Positions 4,878-25,330 of a DNA stretch of 52,121 nucleotides are shown here, piece after piece. Both the position numbers and the translations under genes were made by a program. Origin of the DNA: a virus. Position 1 is the stretch's first letter, and every line of letters begins with the position of its first letter. The stretch covers positions 1-52,121 of IMG/VR virus record IMGVR_UViG_3300005618_000022. The stretch is one strand, 5' to 3'. The notes beneath the pieces were generated by a model. It was not told where the DNA came from. It searched no databases and saw nothing but the letters and a program-made list of their open reading frames with translations.

Positions 4878-4987
4878 CTCCGGGTCGCGTGTTTGTTGTG
4901 ATGTGGATGCTCGTGACAGCAGCGGCCATGGCCACCTCGCTACGCGCTGTTTATTTGTTGCACGAGCTTGCAAAAGTGTGCCAGTAA
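4874..4987 (+). CDS. Tiny one-helix membrane protein (37 aa)
   Basis: The ATG at 4874 overlaps the previous stop, and the TAA overlaps the next ATG (TAATG). Residues 5-28 (RVFVVMWMLVTAAAMATSLRAVY part) make one membrane helix. It is one of about ten such peptides in this genome. Holin-like or envelope-modifying roles are possible but not shown. Confidence 0.55.
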   Translation: MTPGRVFVVMWMLVTAAAMATSLRAVYLLHELAKVCQ

Positions 4988-5427
4988 TGCCAACAGGATC
5001 GTGGCCTTACAAATCAGAGTCTGTTGCGCGCAGCTTCGGTTGGTTCAACCCAAACGATGCTGAAGCTATTGACAAATTTCCCTCGCCGCCTGAGGTTCCG
5101 CTTGAAATGAAAAATACTGCAGCTCCTCAAAAAGAAGACAAAATGAAGAAGGCACGCTGGGACCTGGTGAGCTTCCGGGCGATGGAGCTCGAAGCTGACG
5201 TGATGGCTTTTGGTGTGGGCAAGCACGAAGATAACGGCGTGCAGAAGTGGCGGAACGAGAGCGTGGACCAGCATTTCGCCTCGCTCATGCGGCACATCTC
5301 GGCGTACCGACGTGGTGAGTACCTCGACCCTGAGACCGGCAAGCCGCACTTGGCGCATGCGCGGTGTCGGTTGGGTTTTTTGCTCGAAATCGAAGAAGCG
5401 AAGCGTGCTGACCAGACAACAGCTTAA
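4987..5427 (+). CDS. DUF5664 protein, putative dATP/dGTP diphosphohydrolase
   Basis: The 146-residue product has an unconserved N-terminus (about 1-55) and then ARWDLVSFRAMELEADVMAFGVGKHEDNG ... followed by SLMRHISAYRRGEYLDPETGKPHLAHARCRLGFLLE. This is the pattern of the DUF5664 domain, also named dATP/dGTP diphosphohydrolase N-terminal. Such enzymes remove pyrophosphate from purine dNTPs. In an operon with PurZ, MazZ-like and DatZ-like enzymes it would fit adjustment of the dGTP or dATP pool. Function is inferred from family and context. Confidence 0.75.
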   Translation: MPTGSWPYKSESVARSFGWFNPNDAEAIDKFPSPPEVPLEMKNTAAPQKEDKMKKARWDLVSFRAMELEADVMAFGVGKHEDNGVQKWRNESVDQHFASLMRHISAYRRGEYLDPETGKPHLAHARCRLGFLLEIEEAKRADQTTA

Positions 5428-9393: not shown

Positions 9394-9575
9394 TGGGTTT
9401 CTACTGCGCCGAGTGCGGTAGTCTCGTCGTCAAAGGGCACGTGTCTGGGCCATGCGTGCTAGAATGCGACCGGTGTCACATGCAGTACAGGAGCGAAGGT
9501 GGTGCTGGTACCAAGTCTGTCATGATCGGGCGAGCTCCTCTTTACGCTTGTGAGCAGCTCTACTTCCGCCGATGA
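9393..9575 (+). CDS. Small zinc-ribbon protein
   Basis: A 60-residue protein with CAECG and CDRCH pairs that should bind one zinc. Its ATG overlaps the previous TGA and its stop overlaps the polymerase ATG, so it is tightly coupled to the DNA polymerase gene. Confidence 0.65.
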   Translation: MGFYCAECGSLVVKGHVSGPCVLECDRCHMQYRSEGGAGTKSVMIGRAPLYACEQLYFRR

Positions 9576-11917
9576 TTGTCATCAACGCGCTGTCGCGCGG
9601 AGACAAGATCGAATTCATCCAACCAGGCGGGTCGTCTATCTGGGTGCCTTGCACTTACGACTTCTTCATCCCAGGCAGCGACCCGCATCCGGTAGCCAAC
9701 TGCCGCAAAGAGAACGGCTGGTACCGAGTAAGCTGTGGAAGCTGGACCGAGCGCAGCGATCAAATACGCTACTGGCACAAGCTGGGAGTGCAGACGTTCG
9801 AAGGCGACGTTTCGCCCATCCGTCGTTATTTCGTCGATCACCCAGACACCCAAATCGGCAAGCCTTATGCGTGCTATCTCGACATTGAGGCTGACTCCAG
9901 AGCTAATTTCTTCCATCTCACCGCTGGCCACGCGCGCGTGCTTTGCTGGACCACGCAAGGCAAAGAGACTGGAAAGATCGTCCACCGCTGCCTGCAGTCA
10001 GACAGCGACGCCGACGAGCGTCGACTACTCGCTGCATTTTGGGAAACGTTCGCGCATTATGATCAGGTTCTCGCCTGGAACGGTGGCCAAATAGACAGCG
10101 ATATCCTGAAGACTGAGCACGCGAAGCACGGATTCGATTTCTATGTCATCGTGCGACGTTCGGCCCGTCTAGGCGTGCTACCCAAATGGTGGCGACGCAA
10201 GCTCTACCTCGATCACCTTGCGTGCTTCAAGCGCAACAACATGAACTCGGGCGATGCCTCAGAGAAGGTGTCTTTCTCCCTCGAGAACATCGGTATGGCT
10301 AAGGTCGGGCGAGGCAAGTCGCATTTCGACAGCTCGCGCACGTGGGAAGCCTGGTATGCCGGAGGCAAGAGCAGGCAAGATCTCAGCGATTACAACGTGG
10401 CTGACGTTGTGCTTGAGAGCGACATAGAGAAGGCGACCGACTACCTGTCTGTGTTTCAGTCTCTGTGCGAGGCGACCTGGGTTTTCCCTGATACGCCAGG
10501 GTTGCAGCCAATGCGCCAAGTAGACGGGCTCATGATGAGCTACGGCAACAGGCGAGGCGTTCACTTCAAGACCAAAGATCATGAAGCCGTCAACCCAGAT
10601 CAGTCTTTCGCTGGTGCTTACTGCGAGGGACCGAACCACGTGGACGAGTTGCGCTCTGAAGACGGGCTTGTGCACAACGTGCATGTGGCCGACTTTAAGT
10701 CACTGTATCCGTCGATCATGATCTCGCTGAACATCTCGCCAGAGCTGATTGGTTTGCCTGGCTCCACGTGTCCTGTGGACGAGGCATCGATGCAGAAGTA
10801 CGGCGTAACGAAGCCGATCACTTTCGGCACCGATGACGAAGGCGTGCTGCCCGAATGCGTGAAAGACATGCTCGCGTTGCGCGAAGAGTGGAAACAGCGC
10901 AGCAAAAAATTTCCCAAGGGATCGCCTGAGGAGCAGGAAGCGTCACGCAAATCAATGGCCTACAAGATGGCTGGGAACGCTTTCATGGGTGTTGCGTGTT
11001 CGCCTTACTCGCGTTATTCCAGCGTAGAGATCGGGCTGGCTATCACGCGCACAGGTGTTTCGCTGATCCACGCAGCTCGAGATGCATGCAGAGCTCGAGG
11101 ATGGCGCGTCATTTACATCGACACAGACTCGCTGTTTGTGGTGGGGCCCACAGTCGAGCAGTTCAAGGAGTTCACCTCGTGGTGCAATGCAGAGTTGTTT
11201 CCGAAGCTGGCGAAAGAATGGGGCTGCCGTGACAACATCTTCTATCTCGACTACGAAAAAGCGTTCGAAGGGATCGCGTTCACCTACGACGTCAAAAAGC
11301 GAAAGTACAATAGGAAGAAGTACGCATATCGCCTGGCTCACAAGGGTTTTACGCCGCCTAAGCCAGGAAAAGAGGTTGACGTTGTTGGTATTGAGTCTAA
11401 AAGAGGAGACTCGTGCGGACTTGCTAGAGAGTTACAAAAAGCAGTCATAGACAAGTTGCTTGGCTCAAAGCCTACAACAGCTGACGAGCTTGTTGCGCTG
11501 ATCGAGAAGTTCCGTTTACGCGTGTTCCACGAGGATCATCCCGTCGAAGCTGTCATGATCAGCAAGGCGATCAAAAAAGAGCTGGCCGATTTCGGAGACA
11601 AGAGCCTGCCCCACGTGAAAGCTGCGCGTCTACTGCAAAACAAGGGGCGAGAGGTTCGCGAGGGAACCAAAGTGCAGTTCGTTGTCGTTAACGGCGAGAA
11701 GAGCAAGAAGTACAACAAAGAAGGTGGCCAGCAGGTCATTCTCGCTGAGGACTACAAGGGCGATTTCGATCGTGTCTGGTTTTGGACCGTAGGGGTCTAC
11801 CCGGGAACGTATCGTATTGTCAAAGCAGCGTTCCCTCATGACGTGCGCTTTGACCGGTTCGCCCGTTACACGAAGTACAACCGGCTCGAGACGGCTGGTC
11901 AGTTGACACTATTCTAG
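9572..11917 (+). CDS. Family B DNA polymerase with 3'-5' exonuclease
   Basis: This polymerase is 781 residues long. Exonuclease motifs are intact: ExoI YLDIEAD (Asp104, Glu106), ExoII AWNGGQID (Asn170, Asp175) and ExoIII YNVAD (Tyr274, Asp278). The polymerase motifs follow: A DFKSLYPSI (Asp374), B YKMAGNAFMG, and C YIDTDSL (Asp517, Asp519). It is shorter than cellular PolB and has no obvious TPR1/TPR2 protein-priming insert, so it is more like RB69- or archaeal-type phage enzymes. It is the likely replicase. Z-DNA phages so far studied mainly use PolA-type DpoZ or a Prim-Pol, so a PolB beside PurZ is notable. The start overlaps the previous stop. Confidence 0.95.
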   Translation: MIVINALSRGDKIEFIQPGGSSIWVPCTYDFFIPGSDPHPVANCRKENGWYRVSCGSWTERSDQIRYWHKLGVQTFEGDVSPIRRYFVDHPDTQIGKPYACYLDIEADSRANFFHLTAGHARVLCWTTQGKETGKIVHRCLQSDSDADERRLLAAFWETFAHYDQVLAWNGGQIDSDILKTEHAKHGFDFYVIVRRSARLGVLPKWWRRKLYLDHLACFKRNNMNSGDASEKVSFSLENIGMAKVGRGKSHFDSSRTWEAWYAGGKSRQDLSDYNVADVVLESDIEKATDYLSVFQSLCEATWVFPDTPGLQPMRQVDGLMMSYGNRRGVHFKTKDHEAVNPDQSFAGAYCEGPNHVDELRSEDGLVHNVHVADFKSLYPSIMISLNISPELIGLPGSTCPVDEASMQKYGVTKPITFGTDDEGVLPECVKDMLALREEWKQRSKKFPKGSPEEQEASRKSMAYKMAGNAFMGVACSPYSRYSSVEIGLAITRTGVSLIHAARDACRARGWRVIYIDTDSLFVVGPTVEQFKEFTSWCNAELFPKLAKEWGCRDNIFYLDYEKAFEGIAFTYDVKKRKYNRKKYAYRLAHKGFTPPKPGKEVDVVGIESKRGDSCGLARELQKAVIDKLLGSKPTTADELVALIEKFRLRVFHEDHPVEAVMISKAIKKELADFGDKSLPHVKAARLLQNKGREVREGTKVQFVVVNGEKSKKYNKEGGQQVILAEDYKGDFDRVWFWTVGVYPGTYRIVKAAFPHDVRFDRFARYTKYNRLETAGQLTLF

Positions 11918-11949: not shown

Positions 11950-12438
11950 ATGACCATCAGACAAATGCTCAAGCAATTCTGCGCTGCTTTCGGGATCAAA
12001 AACCCAGAGTTCCCGATGGTTCCCAACGAGGAAGCGGTGCACAAGGCCGTGCGTCTCATCGCGGAGGAGTTCTGCGAGTTTCTCGAGGCCGTGTACGGCA
12101 AGCAACCTTGGATCGATGAGATTAAAGACATTCTGGCCGACTGCATTGGCTACGACCAGCCAGCCGTCGATCTTGTCGAGGCTGCCGATGCGCTGGGCGA
12201 TACAGCGTATGTCGTAGAGTCAGCATTTCAGGCTTTCGGCATCAACTCCGAGCCTGTGCTGGACGAAATTCATCGTACCAACATGAACAAGCGCGGTGGC
12301 GCCAAACGCGAAGACGGCAAGCAGCTCAAGCCCGAAGGCTGGCAACCTCCGCAAATTGCGCAGATTCTGCATGACCAAGTAGCCAGCTGCAGCCAGCCTT
12401 TCGAAGTAACTCACACCTGGGGAGGCTCGGACATCTAA
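11950..12438 (+). CDS. mazZ: MazG-like nucleotide pyrophosphohydrolase, MazZ-type
   Basis: The 162-residue protein has the all-alpha NTP pyrophosphatase signature: EExxE at 39-43 (IAEEFCEF) and ExxD at 77-80 (EAADALGD) for magnesium. The C-terminal VLDEIHRTNMNKRGG with KREDGKQLKPEGWQPP is usual in phage MazG-like enzymes. In Z-DNA phages the relative MazZ turns dGTP into dGMP, the substrate of PurZ. GGAGG lies 8 bases before the ATG. The MazZ assignment rests on the shared operon with purZ and the HD enzyme; MazG motifs alone would not prove it. Confidence 0.82.
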   Translation: MTIRQMLKQFCAAFGIKNPEFPMVPNEEAVHKAVRLIAEEFCEFLEAVYGKQPWIDEIKDILADCIGYDQPAVDLVEAADALGDTAYVVESAFQAFGINSEPVLDEIHRTNMNKRGGAKREDGKQLKPEGWQPPQIAQILHDQVASCSQPFEVTHTWGGSDI

Positions 12439-13061
12439 TGCTAACTGACATCCTCGTGCTCAAGCCTGGACAACAGCCGGCCGCGGTATCGTACGCCTTC
12501 GAGAAGTGCAAGCCGATCTTCAACGAGCTTCCCGGGATCAGCTGCTGCATCGCTGGCGGTGCTATCCGTGATCTCTGCTTGACCGGCGAGTGCCACACCG
12601 ATTGGGACCTCTTCTTCTCCAACGCGGGTCAGTGGCTGGAAGCCAAACCGCTCGTGCTCGGCATCACAAAACCAGGCGTGACGGATGCGGTCAACACAGG
12701 CACGTCGAAGATCGTGCTCGAAAACAATTTCGTCTGCAAAGTCGATACGCATCTCGGGCAGATCGATCTGTGCAAGCGCACCTTCGCAACGGTAGAGGCG
12801 ACGGTCGACAGCTTCGACTTCACCATCGCTGCTGCTGCCTTCAACCGCAAGGGCGATTTTTTCTATCACAAGCGGTTCTTCGAGGACCTGGCCCACCGCA
12901 AGCTCGTCTGCCACACAGTCAGTCATCCCATGTCGACGCTGCGTCGTTTGCAGAAGTACACACAGAAGGGCTTCACCATCTGTGCTGGTGGTCTGCTCAC
13001 GATCGCTCGCGAGATTCAGAAGGCTGACCTGTCCGAGCAACAGGTGTTCTATGTCGACTAA
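12438..13061 (+). CDS. Nucleotidyltransferase, poly(A)/CCA-adding head-like
   Basis: A protein of 207 residues. CCIAGGAIRDLCLTGECHTDWDLFF matches the GG-x(n)-D-x-D nucleotidyltransferase core used by CCA-adding enzymes and poly(A) polymerases. VDTHLGQIDLCKRTF gives the third carboxylate and DFTIAAAAFN follows, as in that family. The tail domains that grip tRNA are missing, so the substrate is uncertain. The window's only tRNA lacks an encoded CCA, which makes a link tempting. The start overlaps the MazZ-like stop (TAATG). Confidence 0.75.
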   Translation: MLTDILVLKPGQQPAAVSYAFEKCKPIFNELPGISCCIAGGAIRDLCLTGECHTDWDLFFSNAGQWLEAKPLVLGITKPGVTDAVNTGTSKIVLENNFVCKVDTHLGQIDLCKRTFATVEATVDSFDFTIAAAAFNRKGDFFYHKRFFEDLAHRKLVCHTVSHPMSTLRRLQKYTQKGFTICAGGLLTIAREIQKADLSEQQVFYVD

Positions 13062-13236
13062 GCCCAAAGCGCTGGTCGACTTTCTCGAGATCGTGCGAGA
13101 AGCAGCCTACGGTGAGACGTGCGCTAGCTGTGCTGGGTGCAAGACACCCGATCTCAACTTCCGCGACGAGCTCTCGCGCAAAGAGTACAGCATCTCGCGT
13201 CTCTGTCAAAAGTGCCAGGACGAGGTCTTCGAGTGA
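13051..13236 (+). CDS. Small phage zinc-finger protein
   Basis: The 61-residue protein has CASCAGCK and, after FRDELSRKEYSIS, RLCQKCQDEVFE. The FRDELSRKEY ... CQKCQD layout is a widespread small phage family of unknown role with zinc-binding cysteines. It overlaps the preceding gene by 11 bases. Confidence 0.7.
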   Translation: MSTKPKALVDFLEIVREAAYGETCASCAGCKTPDLNFRDELSRKEYSISRLCQKCQDEVFE

Positions 13237-13802
13237 CAGAAGATGTCGTGGCTCTCTACGTCGAGCCACGGGGCCCGTACCCTAAGCTGGTGAGAGAGTG
13301 GTACGACGAGAAGCGCGACGCTCGCACGTACCAAGGCGGCAAGCCTGTTGTTGCGCATCCGCCGTGCGGCCCATGGTCGCGACTGAAGCACCTCCACAAG
13401 AAGCCAGAGGAAGCAGAGCTGGGCTTGCTGGCCGTGGAGCAGGTGAGGAAAAACGGTGGCGTGCTCGAGCAGCCGGCTAATTCCAAGCTCTGGGATGCAG
13501 CCGGCTTGCCTCGTCCTGGAGAACACGATGCGTATGGTTTCTCTATCGTCGTCGATCAATGCGCGTGGGGACACGTCGCAAGAAAAACCACGTGGCTCTA
13601 CTTTGTCCGAGTGGATAAAAACCTCGTGGATCGCACGTGCCGTTTTGGCGGAACTCCAACACACTGGTGCTCAGGCTCGCGCACTGCGCCCAGAGGCCCT
13701 GTACCACCTGGCATCAAGGTCTGTAGCAAGGCTCAACGAAACAGAACGCCTCTCGCATTTGCTGAGTGGCTGATTGAAATGGCGAGGGACGCAAAACGAT
13801 GA
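13233..13802 (+). CDS. Putative C5-methyltransferase-like protein (PPC motif)
   Basis: The start is GTG 13233, overlapping the previous stop (GTGA); the product has 189 residues. HPPCGPWSRL looks like the PPC catalytic-loop motif of cytosine C5 methyltransferases, and GGVLEQPANSKLW looks like the ENV-type region, but no clear SAM-binding FxGxG is visible. A related group in phages is annotated only as hypothetical. It may be a reduced or inactive methyltransferase, or another Cys-dependent enzyme. Confidence 0.5.
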   Translation: MTEDVVALYVEPRGPYPKLVREWYDEKRDARTYQGGKPVVAHPPCGPWSRLKHLHKKPEEAELGLLAVEQVRKNGGVLEQPANSKLWDAAGLPRPGEHDAYGFSIVVDQCAWGHVARKTTWLYFVRVDKNLVDRTCRFGGTPTHWCSGSRTAPRGPVPPGIKVCSKAQRNRTPLAFAEWLIEMARDAKR

Positions 13803-14023
13803 ACGACTCCGATTTCCTCATTCATTACTGGGAAGAAGATTGGCGTCATGAGAACGATAATCGCATCCGCACCAAAGAGGTGTGCGTGTGCGGAGCGTGG
13901 CGCTACACGTGCCTTGCCCTAGCCGATGATGGCTACCAGTCTTGGGGATTCCCAGGTGTGTTGTACATCGGCGAGACACACTATCCAGTCGAGAACCTGT
14001 TGGACCTGGCCCGTGAAAACTAA
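13799..14023 (+). CDS. Small protein, unknown function
   Basis: A 74-residue acidic product starting at an ATGA overlap. It includes a VCVCGAW pair and Trp-rich N-terminus (FLIHYWEEDWRHEND). No family recognised. Confidence 0.6.
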   Translation: MNDSDFLIHYWEEDWRHENDNRIRTKEVCVCGAWRYTCLALADDGYQSWGFPGVLYIGETHYPVENLLDLAREN

Positions 14024-14138
14024 GAACGTCGTCCGTCTCTACAAAGTCGCAGCGATGCCCGTACTGTTGCTCGCTGTCGGCCACATGCTCTACATCGAGT
14101 TCTCGTCGTGGTTGAAGGGGCGACCCTACGATCGATGA
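14013..14138 (+). CDS. Tiny one-helix membrane protein (41 aa)
   Basis: GTG 14013 lies inside the end of the previous gene and the TGA overlaps the next ATG. A single membrane helix (AAMPVLLLAVGHMLYIEF) has a basic N-terminal side and a basic C-terminal tail. Confidence 0.55.
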   Translation: MKTKNVVRLYKVAAMPVLLLAVGHMLYIEFSSWLKGRPYDR

Positions 14139-14326
14139 ACTGGCCTGGTCCCCTCCCTCGCGATCGTGCACAAACCATCGTCGAGAACAGCATGATGTAC
14201 AAAGTCACTCCCTACGAGAAGCGGACCGAGGTGCGGGAATTCCTCGTGCAGCGCGTGACGCTCGACCTCGAAGTGCAAGAAGCAGAACGAGCGCTTGGTG
14301 CGCTGCTACAAACGGAGTACCTGTAA
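14135..14326 (+). CDS. Small helical protein, unknown function
   Basis: A 63-residue protein with a charged helix (REFLVQRVTLDLEVQEAERALGALLQ). ATGA overlaps at both ends keep it within the operon that leads into purZ. No family recognised. Confidence 0.6.
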   Translation: MNWPGPLPRDRAQTIVENSMMYKVTPYEKRTEVREFLVQRVTLDLEVQEAERALGALLQTEYL

Positions 14327-14619
14327 TGGCAGAGATCTACGGGCCGGATGGCAAAACGCTCATCGGCTACACAATGGATTTGGAAGAGCCGGCTCAGGTC
14401 AGCCCCAAGAACATGGGCGAGCTCATCCCGATCCGCAAGCCGGTGGACGAGGCGATGGAAGAAGTGCGCCAGGCGCGCGAAGTGTTGACAGAAGTGCAAA
14501 AGCGCTTTAACTGTGACGAAGTGATCTACAACGACTCGAAACGTGAGCTCGCAGAGGCGAAAAACGCCATGCGCGCGGCCGTGTACGAGCTCGAACGATC
14601 GCTCTACGCGGAGGATTGA
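14326..14619 (+). CDS. Small coiled-coil protein before purZ
   Basis: The 97-residue protein has a short beta N-terminus (MAEIYGPDGKTLIGYTMD) and a long charged helix in the second half (VDEAMEEVRQAREVLTE ...). It ends 2 bases before the purZ start, and its 3' end carries the purZ ribosome site. Confidence 0.65.
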   Translation: MAEIYGPDGKTLIGYTMDLEEPAQVSPKNMGELIPIRKPVDEAMEEVRQAREVLTEVQKRFNCDEVIYNDSKRELAEAKNAMRAAVYELERSLYAED

Positions 14620-14621
14620 TC

Positions 14622-15740
14622 ATGCGCGGTCATGTTGACGTTGTTCTCGATGCGGCGTACGGCTCTTCTGGCAAGGGCAAGCTGTCTACCTGGCTCGCCG
14701 ATCATAAGGGCTACGCTGGTGTTTCGTCAGCCAACTTCCCGAACGCCGGCCATACGGCGCTCCGTAACGGTTTCAAGTTCGTAGCCAAGGCCATTCCCAC
14801 GGCGGCGATGCTGTGGCGCGACTGCGAAGCCTGGGATTGCGCGTTCTTCCTCACTCCTGGTTCAGGCTTCACCTGGTCACAGCTCACGAAGGAATGGAAG
14901 GAGTGCGGCAAGCCTCCCATCTACATCCACGAAAGAGCGTGTGTCCTCACCGACGAGCATGCGGCGCGTGAGAGGGAAGGGGCCGAAAGCACAGCGCACA
15001 TCGCCAGCACCATGCAGGGCACGGCTGCAGCGATGACCGACAAGATCCTCCGCAAGCAGAACGCTCCTGTTGCTGCCCAGTACAGCGATGCGTTTCTCGC
15101 TCTGGAGGGCGTTCATATCCTGCAAGCCCAGAAGTTCCGTGACGCCATCCACGACATTCTCAGCTACGACGACATCTTGCACGAGGGATCACAAGGATAT
15201 GCGCTCTCTATCGACCACGGCTCGCACTATCCTCAGTGTACTAGCCGCAATTGCACTACCGCTGCCGCTCTGGATTATCTTGGCGTGGCACCTCAGAGAC
15301 TCGGCGACGTCTGGCTCAATATCAGGAGCTATCCAATCCGTGTCGGAAACATCGCCCAGGGTAGCTCTGGCGACTTCTATCCCGACAGCCAGGAAATCAC
15401 ATGGGCAGAAGTGGCGGCAAGAGCTGGAATGCCCTACGATGAGACCATCAAACTCGCCGAGCGTGAACGAACTACCGTCACCAAGCGGATACGTCGAGTA
15501 GCAACGTTCTCGTGGCAGAACCTCGAGGACGCTGTGCGCACGAACGGCGCGACCAAGCTGTGCCTCAACTTCGCCCAGTACATCGATTGGAGCGACAACG
15601 GTAAGCGAGACTTCGACAAGCTGACGCGCAACACGCGCGAATTCGTAGACGAGATCGAGACGAGGACTGGGCTGCCCGTGGCGCTCATCGGCACAGGCGC
15701 AGATCATGAAGACATGGTCGTCAGAGAGGAGTACGTGTGA
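14622..15740 (+). CDS. purZ: PurZ, N6-succino-2-amino-2'-deoxyadenylate synthase
   Basis: This 372-residue member of the adenylosuccinate synthetase family aligns with PurA along its length: the nucleotide loop YGSSGKGK (13-20), NAGHT with catalytic His44, LHEGSQGYALSIDHG, and a C-terminal GTGADHEDMV. Two changes mark it as PurZ. The catalytic Asp of PurA (WGDEGKGK) is Ser15, the hallmark of PurZ. The guanine-recognising TKLD motif reads NFAQ, so use of GTP is unlikely and ATP or dATP likelier. PurZ joins dGMP to aspartate, and host PurB then releases dZMP. The start at 14622 has GGAGG 7 bases before; a TTG two codons up is not preferred. Confidence 0.93.
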   Translation: MRGHVDVVLDAAYGSSGKGKLSTWLADHKGYAGVSSANFPNAGHTALRNGFKFVAKAIPTAAMLWRDCEAWDCAFFLTPGSGFTWSQLTKEWKECGKPPIYIHERACVLTDEHAAREREGAESTAHIASTMQGTAAAMTDKILRKQNAPVAAQYSDAFLALEGVHILQAQKFRDAIHDILSYDDILHEGSQGYALSIDHGSHYPQCTSRNCTTAAALDYLGVAPQRLGDVWLNIRSYPIRVGNIAQGSSGDFYPDSQEITWAEVAARAGMPYDETIKLAERERTTVTKRIRRVATFSWQNLEDAVRTNGATKLCLNFAQYIDWSDNGKRDFDKLTRNTREFVDEIETRTGLPVALIGTGADHEDMVVREEYV

Positions 15741-15907
15741 TGTGGTTTACGACCGGTACGATGTGCGAAGACTGCGGCGGACCTGGCAAGCAGCGCTACG
15801 TACAAGACCCTGTGTTGTGCGAACGGTGCCACAGGGAGAGACTGTTGGCCAAGCTCGCAGGCAACGAGAAGCGACAGGAGGAAGCCAATGGGCAAGCTAA
15901 TCGGTAA
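15740..15907 (+). CDS. Small zinc-ribbon protein
   Basis: The 55-residue product starts in a TGATG overlap with purZ. Two pairs, CEDCGGPG and CERCH, are spaced for a zinc ribbon, followed by a charged helix (RERLLAKLAGNEKRQEEA). Confidence 0.6.
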   Translation: MWFTTGTMCEDCGGPGKQRYVQDPVLCERCHRERLLAKLAGNEKRQEEANGQANR

Positions 15908-16007
15908 CATAATCACGGGCATCTTTTTGGCGTGGCTGCTCTTCACGGGCGGACTGCTCGGGCTGTGGATCACAAAGACGCTCTTTCAGGCGGTGACAGG
16001 ATGGTAG
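15888..16007 (+). CDS. Tiny one-helix membrane protein (39 aa)
   Basis: AGGAGGAAGCC precedes ATG 15888, a strong ribosome site placed within the end of the zinc-ribbon gene. Residues 7-30 form a membrane helix (NIITGIFLAWLLFTGG then LLGLWI). Confidence 0.65.
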   Translation: MGKLIGNIITGIFLAWLLFTGGLLGLWITKTLFQAVTGW

Positions 16008-16129
16008 CCATGGGACCTGGCGACGGGGATTACGGCGGCGACGGCTTCGACGACGACTTCTACGACGATGACGACACCGACGACTACGATGACGAGTGGG
16101 GCGACGAGCCCGACTACGACGAGGATTAG
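16001..16129 (+). CDS. Extremely acidic Asp/Tyr/Gly peptide
   Basis: A 42-residue product (or 39 from ATG 16010) in which about half the residues are Asp or Glu, with Tyr and Gly between them, for example DDDFYDDDDTDDYDDEW. It carries almost no positive charge. Such composition recalls the acidic DNA-mimic proteins phages use against DNA-binding host proteins, but at this length it could also be a linker-like or metal-binding peptide. The ATG overlaps the previous stop. Confidence 0.5.
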   Translation: MVAMGPGDGDYGGDGFDDDFYDDDDTDDYDDEWGDEPDYDED

Positions 16130-16132
16130 AGT

Positions 16133-16354
16133 ATGTACGCCATCCGATACAAAGACATTGCAGAGCTCGACGGCACCGACGACATGAACTACTGGCTCGG
16201 TGCCAAAGACCTCGAGAGAGCAGAAAAGCTAGAAGACGTGGTGGTTGACTCGCCTCGTTTCGACAGGCTGAGATTCCGCCAGAAGTCGATCGCGCACCAG
16301 TTGCGTAAGATCATCGGTAAGGATTACTGCGTTGTAGTGAGGATCAGCGAATGA
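16133..16354 (+). CDS. Small protein, unknown function
   Basis: A 73-residue protein just before the HD hydrolase, overlapping its ATG. It contains MNYWLGAKDLERAEKLEDVV and a basic helix (RLRFRQKSIAHQLRKIIG). No family recognised. Confidence 0.6.
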   Translation: MYAIRYKDIAELDGTDDMNYWLGAKDLERAEKLEDVVVDSPRFDRLRFRQKSIAHQLRKIIGKDYCVVVRISE

Positions 16355-16938
16355 ACTTCGAAACCGCTGGCACCGTGAAAGGTGTCTCCAAGATTCCGAC
16401 TTTTTCTGGCCGGAACGTCGATCCTCTGAACCTCTGGCCTGAGGACATCGACATCTCCGATATCGCGCATGCGCTCTCTCGCATTGCTCGCTTCACCGGT
16501 CACACGGACGGCGAGTTTGCGTTCTCAGTCGCACAACACAGCTGCATCGTCTCGGATCAGCTTCCCGACGAGCTCAAGCTGTGGGGCCTGCTGCATGATG
16601 CTTCCGAGGCGTACCTAAACGACGTGTCCCGACCGCTCAAGTATTCGCCTGCGTTCAAGGGCTACCACGCGATCGAAAAGCAGGCGATGGCCGCCATCGT
16701 CGCTAAGTTCAAGCTCAGCCCAGACAACGAGCCAGAGGCAGTGAAACAGGCCGACGTGGTGTCGCTGTCCACCGAGTTCCGCGACCTCATGACCAAGTTC
16801 ACGCAAACCGAATACTGGGAACAAGTCAAGCCGCGTATGCCCAAACCGCTGCCTTTTACCATCGTGCCCTGGGCCCCCCAGCAGGCAGAGTTCGAGTTCC
16901 TCTCGCGTTACGCGCGCATTAACAAGGTGTCGCGGTGA
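16351..16938 (+). CDS. datZ: HD-domain dNTP phosphohydrolase, DatZ-like
   Basis: Length is 195 residues. The HD-fold metal site is visible: SVAQHS gives His63, LLHDASEAYLNDV gives His82-Asp83, and QADVV gives Asp135. The N-terminus (FSGRNVDPLNLWPEDIDI) is typical for a phage HD hydrolase group that includes DatZ, a dATP triphosphohydrolase which strips dATP from the pool so that Z is used in DNA. Similar HD proteins occur in phages without purZ, so the DatZ call rests on the shared operon with purZ and the MazZ-like gene. Confidence 0.8.
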   Translation: MNFETAGTVKGVSKIPTFSGRNVDPLNLWPEDIDISDIAHALSRIARFTGHTDGEFAFSVAQHSCIVSDQLPDELKLWGLLHDASEAYLNDVSRPLKYSPAFKGYHAIEKQAMAAIVAKFKLSPDNEPEAVKQADVVSLSTEFRDLMTKFTQTEYWEQVKPRMPKPLPFTIVPWAPQQAEFEFLSRYARINKVSR

Positions 16939-17222: not shown

Positions 17223-17554
17223 GTATACCCACCAATCTTTTCGCCGGCCCGACTGTCGAGGAGCTCACAGCACGAGAGCAAGAGCTACAGCGAGAGCTAT
17301 CGAAAGTGCAGACCCAGCTCGCCATCGCCAAGCAGCACGAAGTAGAGGCTCAGCGCCAAGAAGCAGCGAACGATATGGCCGTGCGGTTCACTGCGGCTGT
17401 GGCTGACGGTCGTATTATGGGCTACAATTCCAACTCGTACGCCGATCGAGGCAGCTACATGAACCGAGTCGAGTATCGCGAGAAGGAATGCCTCGAGGTC
17501 TATGGTAACGACGGGAGCGAGTGGCGTCTCGAGCGACAAAATGAGCACCTCTAA
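17219..17554 (+). CDS. Coiled-coil protein, unknown function
   Basis: This 111-residue protein has a long N-terminal helix (VEELTAREQELQRELSKVQ) then an aromatic C-terminal half (YNSNSYADRGSYMNRVEYREKECLEVYG). The 3' end overlaps the methyltransferase start by 14 bases. Confidence 0.65.
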   Translation: MSIPTNLFAGPTVEELTAREQELQRELSKVQTQLAIAKQHEVEAQRQEAANDMAVRFTAAVADGRIMGYNSNSYADRGSYMNRVEYREKECLEVYGNDGSEWRLERQNEHL

Positions 17555-18089
17555 GCTTCCTCGCGTGCTCGTCGCTGACCCGCCTTGGATGATCGGGCAG
17601 GCGTTCAAAACGACAGCGGCGAAGAAGCATTACGACCTTATGAAAGACGAGGATATCCTCAACTTTCAGTTGCCCATCATGGCAGACGATTCGCTGCTCT
17701 TCCTGTGGCGTCTCGCCTCGCGTCCTCAGATCGCCTTCGACGTCATGAAGAAGTGGGGATACACGTACAAGACGGAGCTCGTGTGGGTCAAGACCACGAA
17801 AGAGTTCGAGCCCGTCGAGCGTGAAGGAGAACTTCCTGAAGCTCTCCTTGCTTTTGGCAACGGTCATTATGTGCGCGCAGCTCACGAGGTCTGCATGATT
17901 GGTCGACGAGGCCGTGGCCATGTCGACTCTCACAGCACGCGTTCTGTCATCATTGCACCACGCGGCCGTCACTCGGCCAAACCCGACGAGTTCTATAACG
18001 CCGTAGAGGCGATGTGCAAAGGCCCCTACGTCGAACTGTTTGCAAGAACCCAGCGCACAGGCTGGCAACAATACGGAGATGAGATATGA
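17541..18089 (+). CDS. MT-A70 family N6-adenine DNA methyltransferase
   Basis: The protein is 182 residues long. It begins with VLVADPPWMIG, the DPPW catalytic motif of MT-A70 methyltransferases, and continues with SLLFLWRLASRPQ, ELVWVKTTK, HEVCMIGRRG and a C-terminal YVELFARTQRTGW that holds the SAM-binding side. The order of motifs fits beta-class single-domain phage enzymes. It would transfer a methyl group to the N6 amine. Because this phage likely carries 2-aminoadenine, the base it methylates is an open question. The start at 17541 begins at the domain edge. Confidence 0.85.
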   Translation: MSTSKLPRVLVADPPWMIGQAFKTTAAKKHYDLMKDEDILNFQLPIMADDSLLFLWRLASRPQIAFDVMKKWGYTYKTELVWVKTTKEFEPVEREGELPEALLAFGNGHYVRAAHEVCMIGRRGRGHVDSHSTRSVIIAPRGRHSAKPDEFYNAVEAMCKGPYVELFARTQRTGWQQYGDEI

Positions 18090-18707: not shown

Positions 18708-18949
18708 AGGATGCAATCGGAAACGATATCAAGCTTGGCAGCACGATCGTGCACGCCTGCTCTAGCTACGGCCACAGGGTCAGCATGCAGACAGGTGTCG
18801 TGACCAAACTTCGACACGTCGAGCAACAGAGCCGTCGCCGCGGGAACTTCACGCGTGACACGATTTGGTACGATGGCCCCAGGGGCCTCTGCTTTGCGAG
18901 GGATTCCAAGCGAGTCGTCGTTGTGACTTCTCCTGTCGCCAATGCCTAG
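18704..18949 (+). CDS. Small SH3-like barrel candidate, unknown function
   Basis: An 81-residue protein that shares the beginning M-K-D-x-x-G-x-x-I-x-x-G-S with the proteins at 4176 and 29864. The TGVVTKLRH and RRRGNFTRDTIWYDGPRG segments suggest short beta strands and a basic surface. It lies just before the primase and overlaps its start by 8 bases. Confidence 0.65.
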   Translation: MKDAIGNDIKLGSTIVHACSSYGHRVSMQTGVVTKLRHVEQQSRRRGNFTRDTIWYDGPRGLCFARDSKRVVVVTSPVANA

Positions 18950-21167
18950 CAACGTCGTCGAGTTCCAGCAGCTACCGGAACTCTCACCCATGGGCCAGCG
19001 GGCGCTAGAGTACGCGCAAGCTGGCCTATTCGTGTTTCCGGTGTGGGGCCTGCTCGATGACCTTGGTTGCGCCTGTCCCGAGCATGGGAACTGTGGCTCG
19101 CCAGGCAAGCACCCAATGGTCAAGTCTGGTCTCAACGTAGCGACCACGGCGGACGACCAAATCCGCAAGTGGTGGCGCAAGTGGCCTAAGGCTAACATCG
19201 GCATCAACGCCGACAAGTCTGGTCTCCTGATCTTGGACATCGACCCGCGCAACGGTGGCAACGAGTCGCTCGACAAGCTGGAGAAAGAGTATGGCGATCT
19301 GCCGCCCACGTACGAGGTTCGCACTGGTGGAGATGGACGACACTTCTACTTCAAACACGAGCCAGCCGTCAAAAGCAAGCCTATTGCTGCTGGAATCGAC
19401 ATTAAAAGTAAGGGAGGATATGTTGTCGCTCCTCCTTCTCTCCATCATAGTGGCCGCACTTATGAAGCCACTTTGGCTGGCAATCCTCGAGGCTTCATTC
19501 TTGATGCTCCTGACTGGGTTGTCGATCTGTGTACACGAGAGCCTGAAAAGAAAGCTCACTCGCCAAAGCCTGTTGCAAAAGGTCGAGAACCGAAGCAAAT
19601 ACCTGTCGAGTCCGGACTCTACGGTGCAGCTCTCAAGCATGCTGGCTGGCTCGGTGAGTACGTTGGACAGGGACGCTGTGCTTGTCACTGCCCGTTCATT
19701 TCCCAGCACACTTCAGGCGTTGACCTCGATGGATCCTGCGTCGTCTTCGCACCAGAAAATGGCGGCGTTAATGGATACATTCACTGCTCGCACTCCCATT
19801 GCGCCAACAGAACCCAGCCCGAGTTCTGGGCCGCAATTCCCGCCGTATCGCGTGACGCTGCGAAAAGCCAGCTTCAGGTAAATCCACTCTACGAACCTGC
19901 TGCTACCGCTGACGTCGAGTGGTGCAAATCGTGGCGCTCCTCGCTTCTGTTCGATAACAAGGGCAGATTAAAGCGCGTGCTGGGCAACGCGTCCCTCATC
20001 CTCAAGAACCATCCCGAGTTTGCTGGTTGTCTCGGTTTCGACGAATTCAAAGAGAGCTACGTGTGGCTCAAGAAACCGCCGTCCATCGTCGGGCTTGATG
20101 ACGTGAAGCTCGGCCCAGTGAAGGACGAGCACTTCCTGCAGATCGGCTATTACCTGTCTGCGCGCTACGATATGCAAGAGTTCTCGTCAGACAACATCTT
20201 CCAAATCATGCGTGGCGCTGCGATCCCGTTTCATCCCGTGCGAGATTACCTGAACTCGCTCGTGTGGGACAAAAAGCCTCGTCTCATTAAGTGGTTGTCC
20301 ACGTACCTGGGAACGCCTGACGACAAGTACACGCGTCTCGTTGGGCCCATGTGGTTCGTTTCTGGTGTGGCTCGCATCGCAGAGCCAGGATGCAAGGCTG
20401 ACCATGTCCTCATTCTCGAAGGAAAGCAAGGAACGCAGAAGTCTACAGCTCTCCGTATTGTCTTTCAGCCTTGGTTTGCTGACACCCCTATTAACCTCGA
20501 TAGTAAAGACGCCTACACTGCTCTGCGAGGAATCTGGGGATACGAGCTGCAAGAGCTACAGTCACTTTCTAAAGCCGATACGGATAAGGCGAAAGCATTT
20601 TTTTCCTCTCCTGTTGACATATACCGCAAACCTTACGACAGAACCACCGTCGAGATCAAACGACAGTGCATCTTCTGTGGAACGGTAAATTACGATGTCT
20701 ATCTCAAAGACGGCTCGGGCAATAGGCGTTATCTCCCTGTGGCAACAGGGAAGATTAACATTCCCGCACTCGAACGAGATAGAGACCAGCTTTGGGCTGA
20801 GGCCGTCGAGATGTACAACAAGGGTTTCAAGTGGTACCCTGAAACAGACGAGGAACACGAGCTCTGCCACGACGAGCAAGAGAAGCGACTGCAACTCGAC
20901 GAAGACCCGTGGACCGAGACCGTGCGACAAGCAACGGAGAACCTCACGCATTGCACGGTGGCTCAGCTTCTGGCTGACCCCATCCATTTCCCGCACTGTA
21001 AGCGTGACCTCAAAGACGCCATCCGCGTTGCGCGCATCTTGCGTGAGCTCGGCTGGGAGAAGTACAACACTGCCAATGGTAAAGCCTGGCGCCTGATCAA
21101 CCGCAACGAGAACGAGAGGAAAACGCCAAATGAACTGGACAACAATGCTAGTCTGCTTACTCGGTGA
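18942..21167 (+). CDS. Prim-Pol and VirE-type primase-helicase
   Basis: A 741-residue two-domain protein. The N-terminal primase-polymerase (AEP) domain shows ALEYAQAGLFVFPV, GKHPMVKSGL, the LDIDPRNGG catalytic DxD (Asp99, Asp101), the GGDGRHFYF His motif and GGYVVAPPSLHHSG. The C-terminal VirE-like SF3-type helicase domain holds ILEGKQGTQKST (Walker A) and ELQELQSLSKAD, then GNRRYLPV. It should synthesise primers and unwind DNA. In cyanophage S-2L a Prim-Pol copies Z-DNA, so this enzyme may also act as a polymerase here beside PolB. Confidence 0.9.
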   Translation: MPSNVVEFQQLPELSPMGQRALEYAQAGLFVFPVWGLLDDLGCACPEHGNCGSPGKHPMVKSGLNVATTADDQIRKWWRKWPKANIGINADKSGLLILDIDPRNGGNESLDKLEKEYGDLPPTYEVRTGGDGRHFYFKHEPAVKSKPIAAGIDIKSKGGYVVAPPSLHHSGRTYEATLAGNPRGFILDAPDWVVDLCTREPEKKAHSPKPVAKGREPKQIPVESGLYGAALKHAGWLGEYVGQGRCACHCPFISQHTSGVDLDGSCVVFAPENGGVNGYIHCSHSHCANRTQPEFWAAIPAVSRDAAKSQLQVNPLYEPAATADVEWCKSWRSSLLFDNKGRLKRVLGNASLILKNHPEFAGCLGFDEFKESYVWLKKPPSIVGLDDVKLGPVKDEHFLQIGYYLSARYDMQEFSSDNIFQIMRGAAIPFHPVRDYLNSLVWDKKPRLIKWLSTYLGTPDDKYTRLVGPMWFVSGVARIAEPGCKADHVLILEGKQGTQKSTALRIVFQPWFADTPINLDSKDAYTALRGIWGYELQELQSLSKADTDKAKAFFSSPVDIYRKPYDRTTVEIKRQCIFCGTVNYDVYLKDGSGNRRYLPVATGKINIPALERDRDQLWAEAVEMYNKGFKWYPETDEEHELCHDEQEKRLQLDEDPWTETVRQATENLTHCTVAQLLADPIHFPHCKRDLKDAIRVARILRELGWEKYNTANGKAWRLINRNENERKTPNELDNNASLLTR

Positions 21168-21210
21168 GGTCTGCGCGCTCATCGGCTTTATGGATTGGAA
21201 CAGGAAATGA
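21130..21210 (+). CDS. Tiny membrane peptide (26 aa)
   Basis: ATG 21130 lies inside the primase C-terminus in another frame. The product is one short hydrophobic helix (MLVCLLGEVCALIGFM) flanked by Trp and Arg/Lys. Its stop overlaps the next ATG. It is short, so confidence is modest. Confidence 0.4.
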   Translation: MNWTTMLVCLLGEVCALIGFMDWNRK

Positions 21211-21296
21211 TGGAAGAAATCGTCTACTTCGTACTGGTGTTTTCAACTGGTACGACTTTCGGAGCCCTTCTGGTGCTATTGATGGGGCGCCTATGA
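21207..21296 (+). CDS. Tiny membrane peptide (29 aa)
   Basis: The ATG overlaps the previous TGA, and AGGAA lies close upstream. The product is one hydrophobic helix (IVYFVLVFSTGTTFGALLVL) and ends in an ATGA overlap with the SLOG gene. The coupling on both sides supports translation. Confidence 0.5.
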   Translation: MMEEIVYFVLVFSTGTTFGALLVLLMGRL

Positions 21297-21784
21297 GCCA
21301 GCCTCGCATTTGTGTTTTCGGCGGTCGTCAGTTCGGGTTCGAGCTCATTGAGTACGGACCCTCGCACAAACTTGCTGGCCACAAGATCTGGGTACCCAAG
21401 CCGTACGTGATCGAGTGGTTCAACAAACAGCTCACACAGAATTTCCTCGTCGATGTAATGTCCTATCGGGATCCCATCCTCGTCTCTGGCTCTTGCCCCA
21501 CTGGTGCTGACTTCTTGGCTGAAGCCTGGGCCGCACAGCATGGTGTGTCTATCGAGCGACATCCAGCCGACTGGTCGCAGGGCAAGTCCGCTGGCCCCAA
21601 GCGCAACGAGGAGATGGCGAGCTCTGGGCTTGCGTGCGCGCTTCAGTTCACGGGCCAGAGAGGCACGACCGACATGCACAACCGCTGCATCAAGCACGAG
21701 GTCTGTCTCTTCGACTTCACAGATCTCGAGCCCAAAGAGCCTCGACGTGATAACAGCTACAAGCTAGGGCAGGCAGGCTTTTAA
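21293..21784 (+). CDS. SLOG-fold (YspA/DUF2493-like) protein
   Basis: A 163-residue Rossmann-like protein. MSQPRICVFGGRQF, SGSCPTGADFLAEAWAAQHG and RHPADWSQGKSAGPKRNEEMA are the SLOG nucleotide-binding signature found in YspA and YpsA-related proteins. SLOG domains bind nucleotide ligands and appear in NAD- or nucleotide-signalling defence systems, but many phage copies have no known role. In this operon it could bind or cleave nucleotide derivatives made for Z-DNA; that is inference. Confidence 0.8.
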   Translation: MSQPRICVFGGRQFGFELIEYGPSHKLAGHKIWVPKPYVIEWFNKQLTQNFLVDVMSYRDPILVSGSCPTGADFLAEAWAAQHGVSIERHPADWSQGKSAGPKRNEEMASSGLACALQFTGQRGTTDMHNRCIKHEVCLFDFTDLEPKEPRRDNSYKLGQAGF

Positions 21785-25188: not shown

Positions 25189-25260
25189 CGGGCGCAACCC
25201 GCGCGAATCTACTCCCACACAGTCGCACGAGGGAGCATATCATCCTTCCTTTGCATTAGA

Positions 25261-25330
25261 GCCAGCGGTAGGAATCGAACCCACGTCGGAGAGGTACAGG
25301 CTCTCAGCTCTGCCATTGAGCTACGCCGGC
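25261..25330 (-). tRNA. tRNA, probable tRNA-Thr(UGU)
   Basis: On the minus strand the cloverleaf is complete: acceptor GCCGGCG/CGCTGGC with one G-U, D arm GCTC/GAGC, anticodon stem GAGAG/CTCTC, variable loop of 4, and T arm GTGGG-TTCGAAT-CCTAC. The anticodon loop reads CCUGUAC, so the anticodon is UGU (Thr) with an unusual C at position 33 instead of U. CCA is not encoded; the bases after the acceptor read TCTA. It stands alone, without other tRNAs nearby. A one-base shift would give GUA (Tyr) but breaks the stem. Confidence 0.85.

Follow-up and report, generated by a model that had tools for sequence, protein, structure and literature searches.

The IMG/VR virus record IMGVR_UViG_3300005618_000022, analysed here over its whole length of 52,121 bases (the window), encodes a protein whose identity as a genuine PurZ is strongly supported by its residues, profile, fold and position in phylogenetic trees. 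The phage probably makes the base 2-aminoadenine (Z) through this true PurZ assisted by non-classical helper enzymes, with a family-B DNA polymerase (PolB) building Z into its DNA. Judged from the sequence, some Z is likely to be present in the phage DNA, and the chances of a full replacement of adenine (A) by Z are about even; we infer all of the enzyme activities, the dATP remover, the base preference of the polymerase, and whether, and how far, virion DNA contains Z. The system is the known Z-DNA trait with swapped helpers, a PolB and a separate PurZ clade, not the textbook gene set. Indeed, Z is still made with an exchanged helper set in the PurZ0 phages (PMC12884076). All open reading frames (ORFs) named here were confirmed at their coordinates in the window.

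The purZ ORF (14622-15740, + strand) starts with ATG, has an in-frame TTG at 14616, and encodes a 372-aa protein predicted to convert dGMP, Asp and ATP or dATP into dSMP, an activity that we consider very likely. Profile and structure-sequence matches put its membership in the PurA family far beyond chance: the protein matches PF00709 (E=3.1e-31), its best profile is that of PurZ (PHROG_1211, "2-aminooxy adenylosuccinate synthetase", E=5.8e-55), and its best sequence match among solved structures is phiVC8 PurZ (6fm1, E=1.7e-37). Within the loop YGSSGKGK, Ser15 occupies the site of the catalytic Asp of PurA, as the earlier note had pointed out in calling the protein PurZ, and the alignment with S23 of S-2L and with the phiVC8 enzyme agrees. 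The remaining PurZ-specific residues reported in contact with substrates, T273 and Q308 in S-2L (PMC8342488), are likewise Thr and Gln in the window protein, whereas the PurA proteins compared, from Salmonella and archaea, have D, G and D at the three sites occupied by S, T and Q. The AlphaFold model (predicted local distance difference test score, pLDDT, 94.9) has dGMP-bound phiVC8 PurZ (6fm1) as its best fold match in the PDB, with archaeal PurA nearly as close; since fold alone cannot split PurZ from archaeal PurA, this match was not taken as deciding evidence.

In the maximum-likelihood trees, the window PurZ falls in its own clade (100/98), which is sister to the classical PurZ clade (99/98) at 92/91. 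The earlier note had proposed placing the protein in a PurA/PurZ/PurZ0 tree, and there it stands apart from both PurA and PurZ0, the latter forming a clade of its own (100/100). An alternative, a divergent phage PurA that makes adenylosuccinate from IMP and no Z, draws on the fold common to PurA and PurZ and on the good scores of archaeal PurA. The S, T and Q contacts, the match to the PHROG PurZ profile, and the position of the protein inside the PurZ/PurZ0 radiation, with PurA outside (100/99), all speak against this scenario, to which we assign a very small chance. Taken together, the evidence makes it unlikely that a PurA has been misread as PurZ.

The other members of the window clade are IMG/VR contigs, many of them 100-436 kb long (L003-L009 and L035-L080), whose PurZ proteins share about 40-60% identity with that of the window. 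A Ser is readable at the catalytic position in nearly all of them, and in some (L008, L055 and L080) genes resembling datZ and mazZ lie no more than 10 kb away. They differ from the window phage in their gene neighbourhoods and in their polymerase, which is PolA-type or was not detected and is never a PolB. This new clade extends the PurZ trait to large-phage contigs.

The PolB gene (9572-11917, + strand; PF00136, E=8.9e-32; PDB family-B polymerases from E=2.8e-25) stops 32 nt upstream of a MazG-type gene and encodes complete 3'-5' exonuclease and polymerase motifs (DIEA, NGGQID, YNVAD, DFKSLYPS, KMAGNAFMG and YIDTDS). The earlier note had missed this polymerase, which stands in place of DpoZ. 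The genome could be closed with a twin IMG/VR contig that shares 18,390 nt with one end of the window (one mismatch) and 2,373 identical nt with the opposite end and contributes a further 10,094 nt, giving a circle of about 62.2 kb. No homologues of PolA, DpoZ, DatZ, MazZ, DutZ or DmtZ were found in the window or the twin contig. Among other PurZ viruses, with the twin contig set aside, PolB was found in none of the 12 named phages and none of the 54 distinct IMG/VR records, and PolA scored above the cut-off in ten of the 12 named phages and in 24 of 50 IMG/VR records; many of these records are fragments, so the absence of a polymerase is not proof for any single one. A scan for close relatives of PolB and of the HD protein described below returned the twin contig only.

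Downstream, the ORF at 18942-21167 (+ strand) encodes a PrimPol of the AEP type joined to a VapE/VirE-type helicase (PF09250, E=1.6e-40; PF05272, E=3.1e-72). Its helicase part shows 32% identity to S-2L PrimPol, and the AEP part is similar to the Bm1 and phiVC8 primases. A YspA/cpYpsA-type SLOG protein is encoded immediately 3' of this gene (21164-21784).

Searching the whole genome with DmtZ, DutZ, the DUF5664-DUF550 fusion of DMU1, DpoZ and the DUF5664 protein of Wayne gave a match only for the last, Wayne gp51, at 4903-5427 (E=3.8e-10). This + strand ORF, which the earlier note did not mention, carries a DUF5664 dATP/dGTP diphosphohydrolase domain (PF18909, E=7.9e-23, 80.8 bits against a curated cut-off of 27; PHROG_801 dATP/dGTP pyrophosphohydrolase, E=4e-26) and probably begins at an internal ATG. 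The Wayne DUF5664 enzyme, which by its PF18909 domain appears to be gp51, converts dATP, dGTP and dUTP to monophosphates, favouring dATP over dGTP about tenfold by kcat (PMC12884076). By analogy, the window protein could both supply dGMP to PurZ and lower dATP, a single candidate enzyme for the two tasks. Besides Wayne and DMU1, two further PurZ viruses carry the PF18909 domain.

The MazG-like NTP pyrophosphohydrolase (11950-12438, + strand; PF01503, E=3.9e-11) was described in the earlier note as a MazZ-like partner of PurZ. We rejected it as a MazZ: the reference hidden Markov model (HMM) of MazZ gave no match to the protein, whose best PDB match is DR2231 (E=6.6e-18), a promiscuous MazG-like enzyme that can cleave dUTP (PMC5122711). 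The window protein has Ala at the position aligned with Glu79 of DR2231 and Asp one position before, as does its counterpart in Bordetella phage CN1. MazZ-1 is recognised by a profile match together with adjacency to purZ; the window gene lies 2.2 kb from purZ and its product is not matched by the profile. No PurZ was found beside other DR2231-like MazG loci. The protein could nevertheless do a job analogous to that of MazZ.

A similar outcome was obtained for the HD phosphohydrolase (16351-16938, + strand), which had been proposed as a DatZ-like partner with full metal motifs. The metal ligands (H...HD...D) are indeed complete, and the phosphate-binding Arg19 and Lys81 as well as Pro79 are kept; these features are common to the wider HD superfamily and not to DatZ alone. 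The protein is of the Atu1052/PHROG_318 type, dNMP phosphatase-like (PHROG_318, E=5.5e-57; Atu1052, E=3.3e-21), and in the tree it joins Atu1052 and generic HD proteins of phages in one clade (100/100) that is separate from DatZ. It scores about 14 bits with the DatZ HMM, compared with 38-153 bits for the HD proteins of other PurZ viruses. In DatZ, Ile22 (or Leu/Met) and Trp20 are the specificity residues, and Gln29 and Gly74 are strictly conserved (PMC8065100); at the positions of Trp20, Ile22, Gln29 and Gly74 of S-2L DatZ, the window protein carries Phe, Gly, Phe and Asn, respectively. The phage proteins most similar to it come from phages that are not known to use Z. Tree and specificity residues led us to reject this protein as a DatZ, and it could have a role analogous to that of DatZ. 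A classical purZ-mazZ-datZ cluster with full replacement of A by Z, as originally envisaged, would accord with the real PurZ, with the MazG and HD superfamilies, and with the HD metal ligands, Arg19, Pro79 and Lys81. Given the generic phage clade of the HD protein, its lack of I22, W20, Q29 and G74, and a MazG protein whose match is to DR2231 rather than to the MazZ HMM, we regard this version as quite improbable.

An MT-A70 family N6-adenine methyltransferase, also missed by the earlier note, is encoded at 17502-18089 (+ strand) with an intact DPPW motif (PF05063, E=9.6e-25; PDB matches to MT-A70/METTL3). No MT-A70 was found in the 48 other PurZ records searched. Its presence calls for caution about a complete A-to-Z replacement: if A is wholly replaced, the enzyme must act on Z, RNA or other DNA, and otherwise the replacement is partial. 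The methyltransferases of E. coli act on Z-containing sequences at least tenfold less efficiently (PMC8342488). A scenario with active PurZ, an unselective PolB and partial Z, in which a mixed A/Z genome blunts restriction enzymes and MT-A70 methylates the leftover A, fits both this gene and a closed genome without a DatZ orthologue or DpoZ, as well as the finding that S-2L PrimPol is non-discriminating and S-2L depends on DatZ (PMC8065100). The dATP preference of the Wayne DUF5664 enzyme weighs on the other side, as efficient dATP removal would be possible. We consider partial Z a serious contender whose chance falls somewhat short of even. It is unlikely that PolB independently became Z-selecting, which would add a third origin to those of the two PolA-type DpoZ groups, with MT-A70 methylating Z to N6-methyl-2-aminoadenine.

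Several observations weigh against Z production and incorporation by the proposed PurZ-PolB route. The MT-A70 gene suggests that some DNA may still contain adenine, and without DatZ or DpoZ the closed genome lacks any recognised dATP barrier. PF18909, the DR2231-like MazG and this HD family are each widespread among phages with no known link to PurZ, so finding these helper families says little in favour of a Z pathway. The nearest PurZ relatives, on contigs of up to 436 kb, have no window-type helpers nearby, and we found no biochemistry for this PurZ clade.

In the proposed pathway from PurZ to a PolB that incorporates Z, the DUF5664 protein, perhaps together with the DR2231-like MazG, would convert dGTP to dGMP and dATP to dAMP. 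PurZ would couple dGMP and Asp into dSMP, which host PurB and kinases would convert to dZTP, and the HD phosphatase may remove dAMP or other dNMPs. Finally, the PrimPol-helicase would prime synthesis, and the family-B polymerase would insert dZTP into DNA.

Compared with the phiVC8/SH-Ab 15497-type systems (PurZ-DatZ-MazZ-DpoZ), the window shares the diagnostic residues and fold of PurZ (with 6fm1 as the best match) and a related AEP primase, but it has a PolB instead of the PolA-type DpoZ, HD and MazG proteins of subfamilies other than DatZ and MazZ, a contractile tail, and a PurZ that belongs to a sister clade of its own. Cyanophage S-2L resembles it in having PurZ, no PolA, and a PrimPol with a VirE-type helicase, whereas S-2L possesses true DatZ and MazZ genes adjoining purZ and lacks a family-B polymerase. 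The PurZ0 phages, such as Arthrobacter phage Wayne and Gordonia phage Ghobes, similarly have a helper set of their own, and DUF5664 is common to the window and Wayne; in contrast, neither DutZ nor DmtZ was detected in the window, its enzyme is PurZ by tree, and its loop reads GSS in place of the GSE of PurZ0. A PurZ phage with a proofreading PolB and without DatZ makes it testable whether the polymerase, the nucleotide pool or neither decides between Z and A. Z-DNA production would also benefit from a family-B enzyme adapted to Z.

The MazG-type, PurZ and HD ORFs are all on the + strand, and the gaps between ORFs are mostly overlaps or short, the largest being 191 nt. This common strand and the overlapping or close spacing make a single transcription unit spanning the three ORFs plausible. 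The earlier description of one operon within 5 kb holds to that extent, with the qualification that about ten other ORFs intervene, whereas purZ, mazZ and datZ are directly adjacent in the majority of the reference PurZ phages that we read. One of the ORFs, at 12438-13061 (+ strand), overlaps the MazG gene and is nucleotidyltransferase-like (PHROG_1614 nucleotidyltransferase, E=6.3e-10). The phage is contractile-tailed, as a tail sheath gene was detected; baseplate and tail genes lie in the part covered by the twin contig only. A single tRNA-Thr gene with anticodon TGT is located on the - strand (25259-25330).

PurZ-like genes were also observed outside these viruses, in metagenome-assembled genomes (MAGs) of uncultured gut Clostridia and Bacilli (L111-L138), with the loop GSCGKGK and the Thr and Gln contacts of PurZ. 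A canonical Asp-containing PurA is also present in some of these MAGs and was not found in others, which may be incomplete. For example, the PurZ-like gene of L114 (9989-11086; CANSJQ010000001.1) lies beside apparent housekeeping genes (recA-like, nusA-like and rimP-like by reading), and these neighbours suggest a chromosomal PurZ-type enzyme. In L111 and L113, which represent two copies in one MAG, the ORF from 9551 has a Nudix-like sequence N-terminal to the PurZ-like domain in one 510-aa frame, a possible Nudix-like/PurZ-like fusion. Among the phages, the PurZ-family Bacillus phage vB_BpsS-140 (L025) has an annotated adenylate kinase, with neither PolA nor PolB detected.
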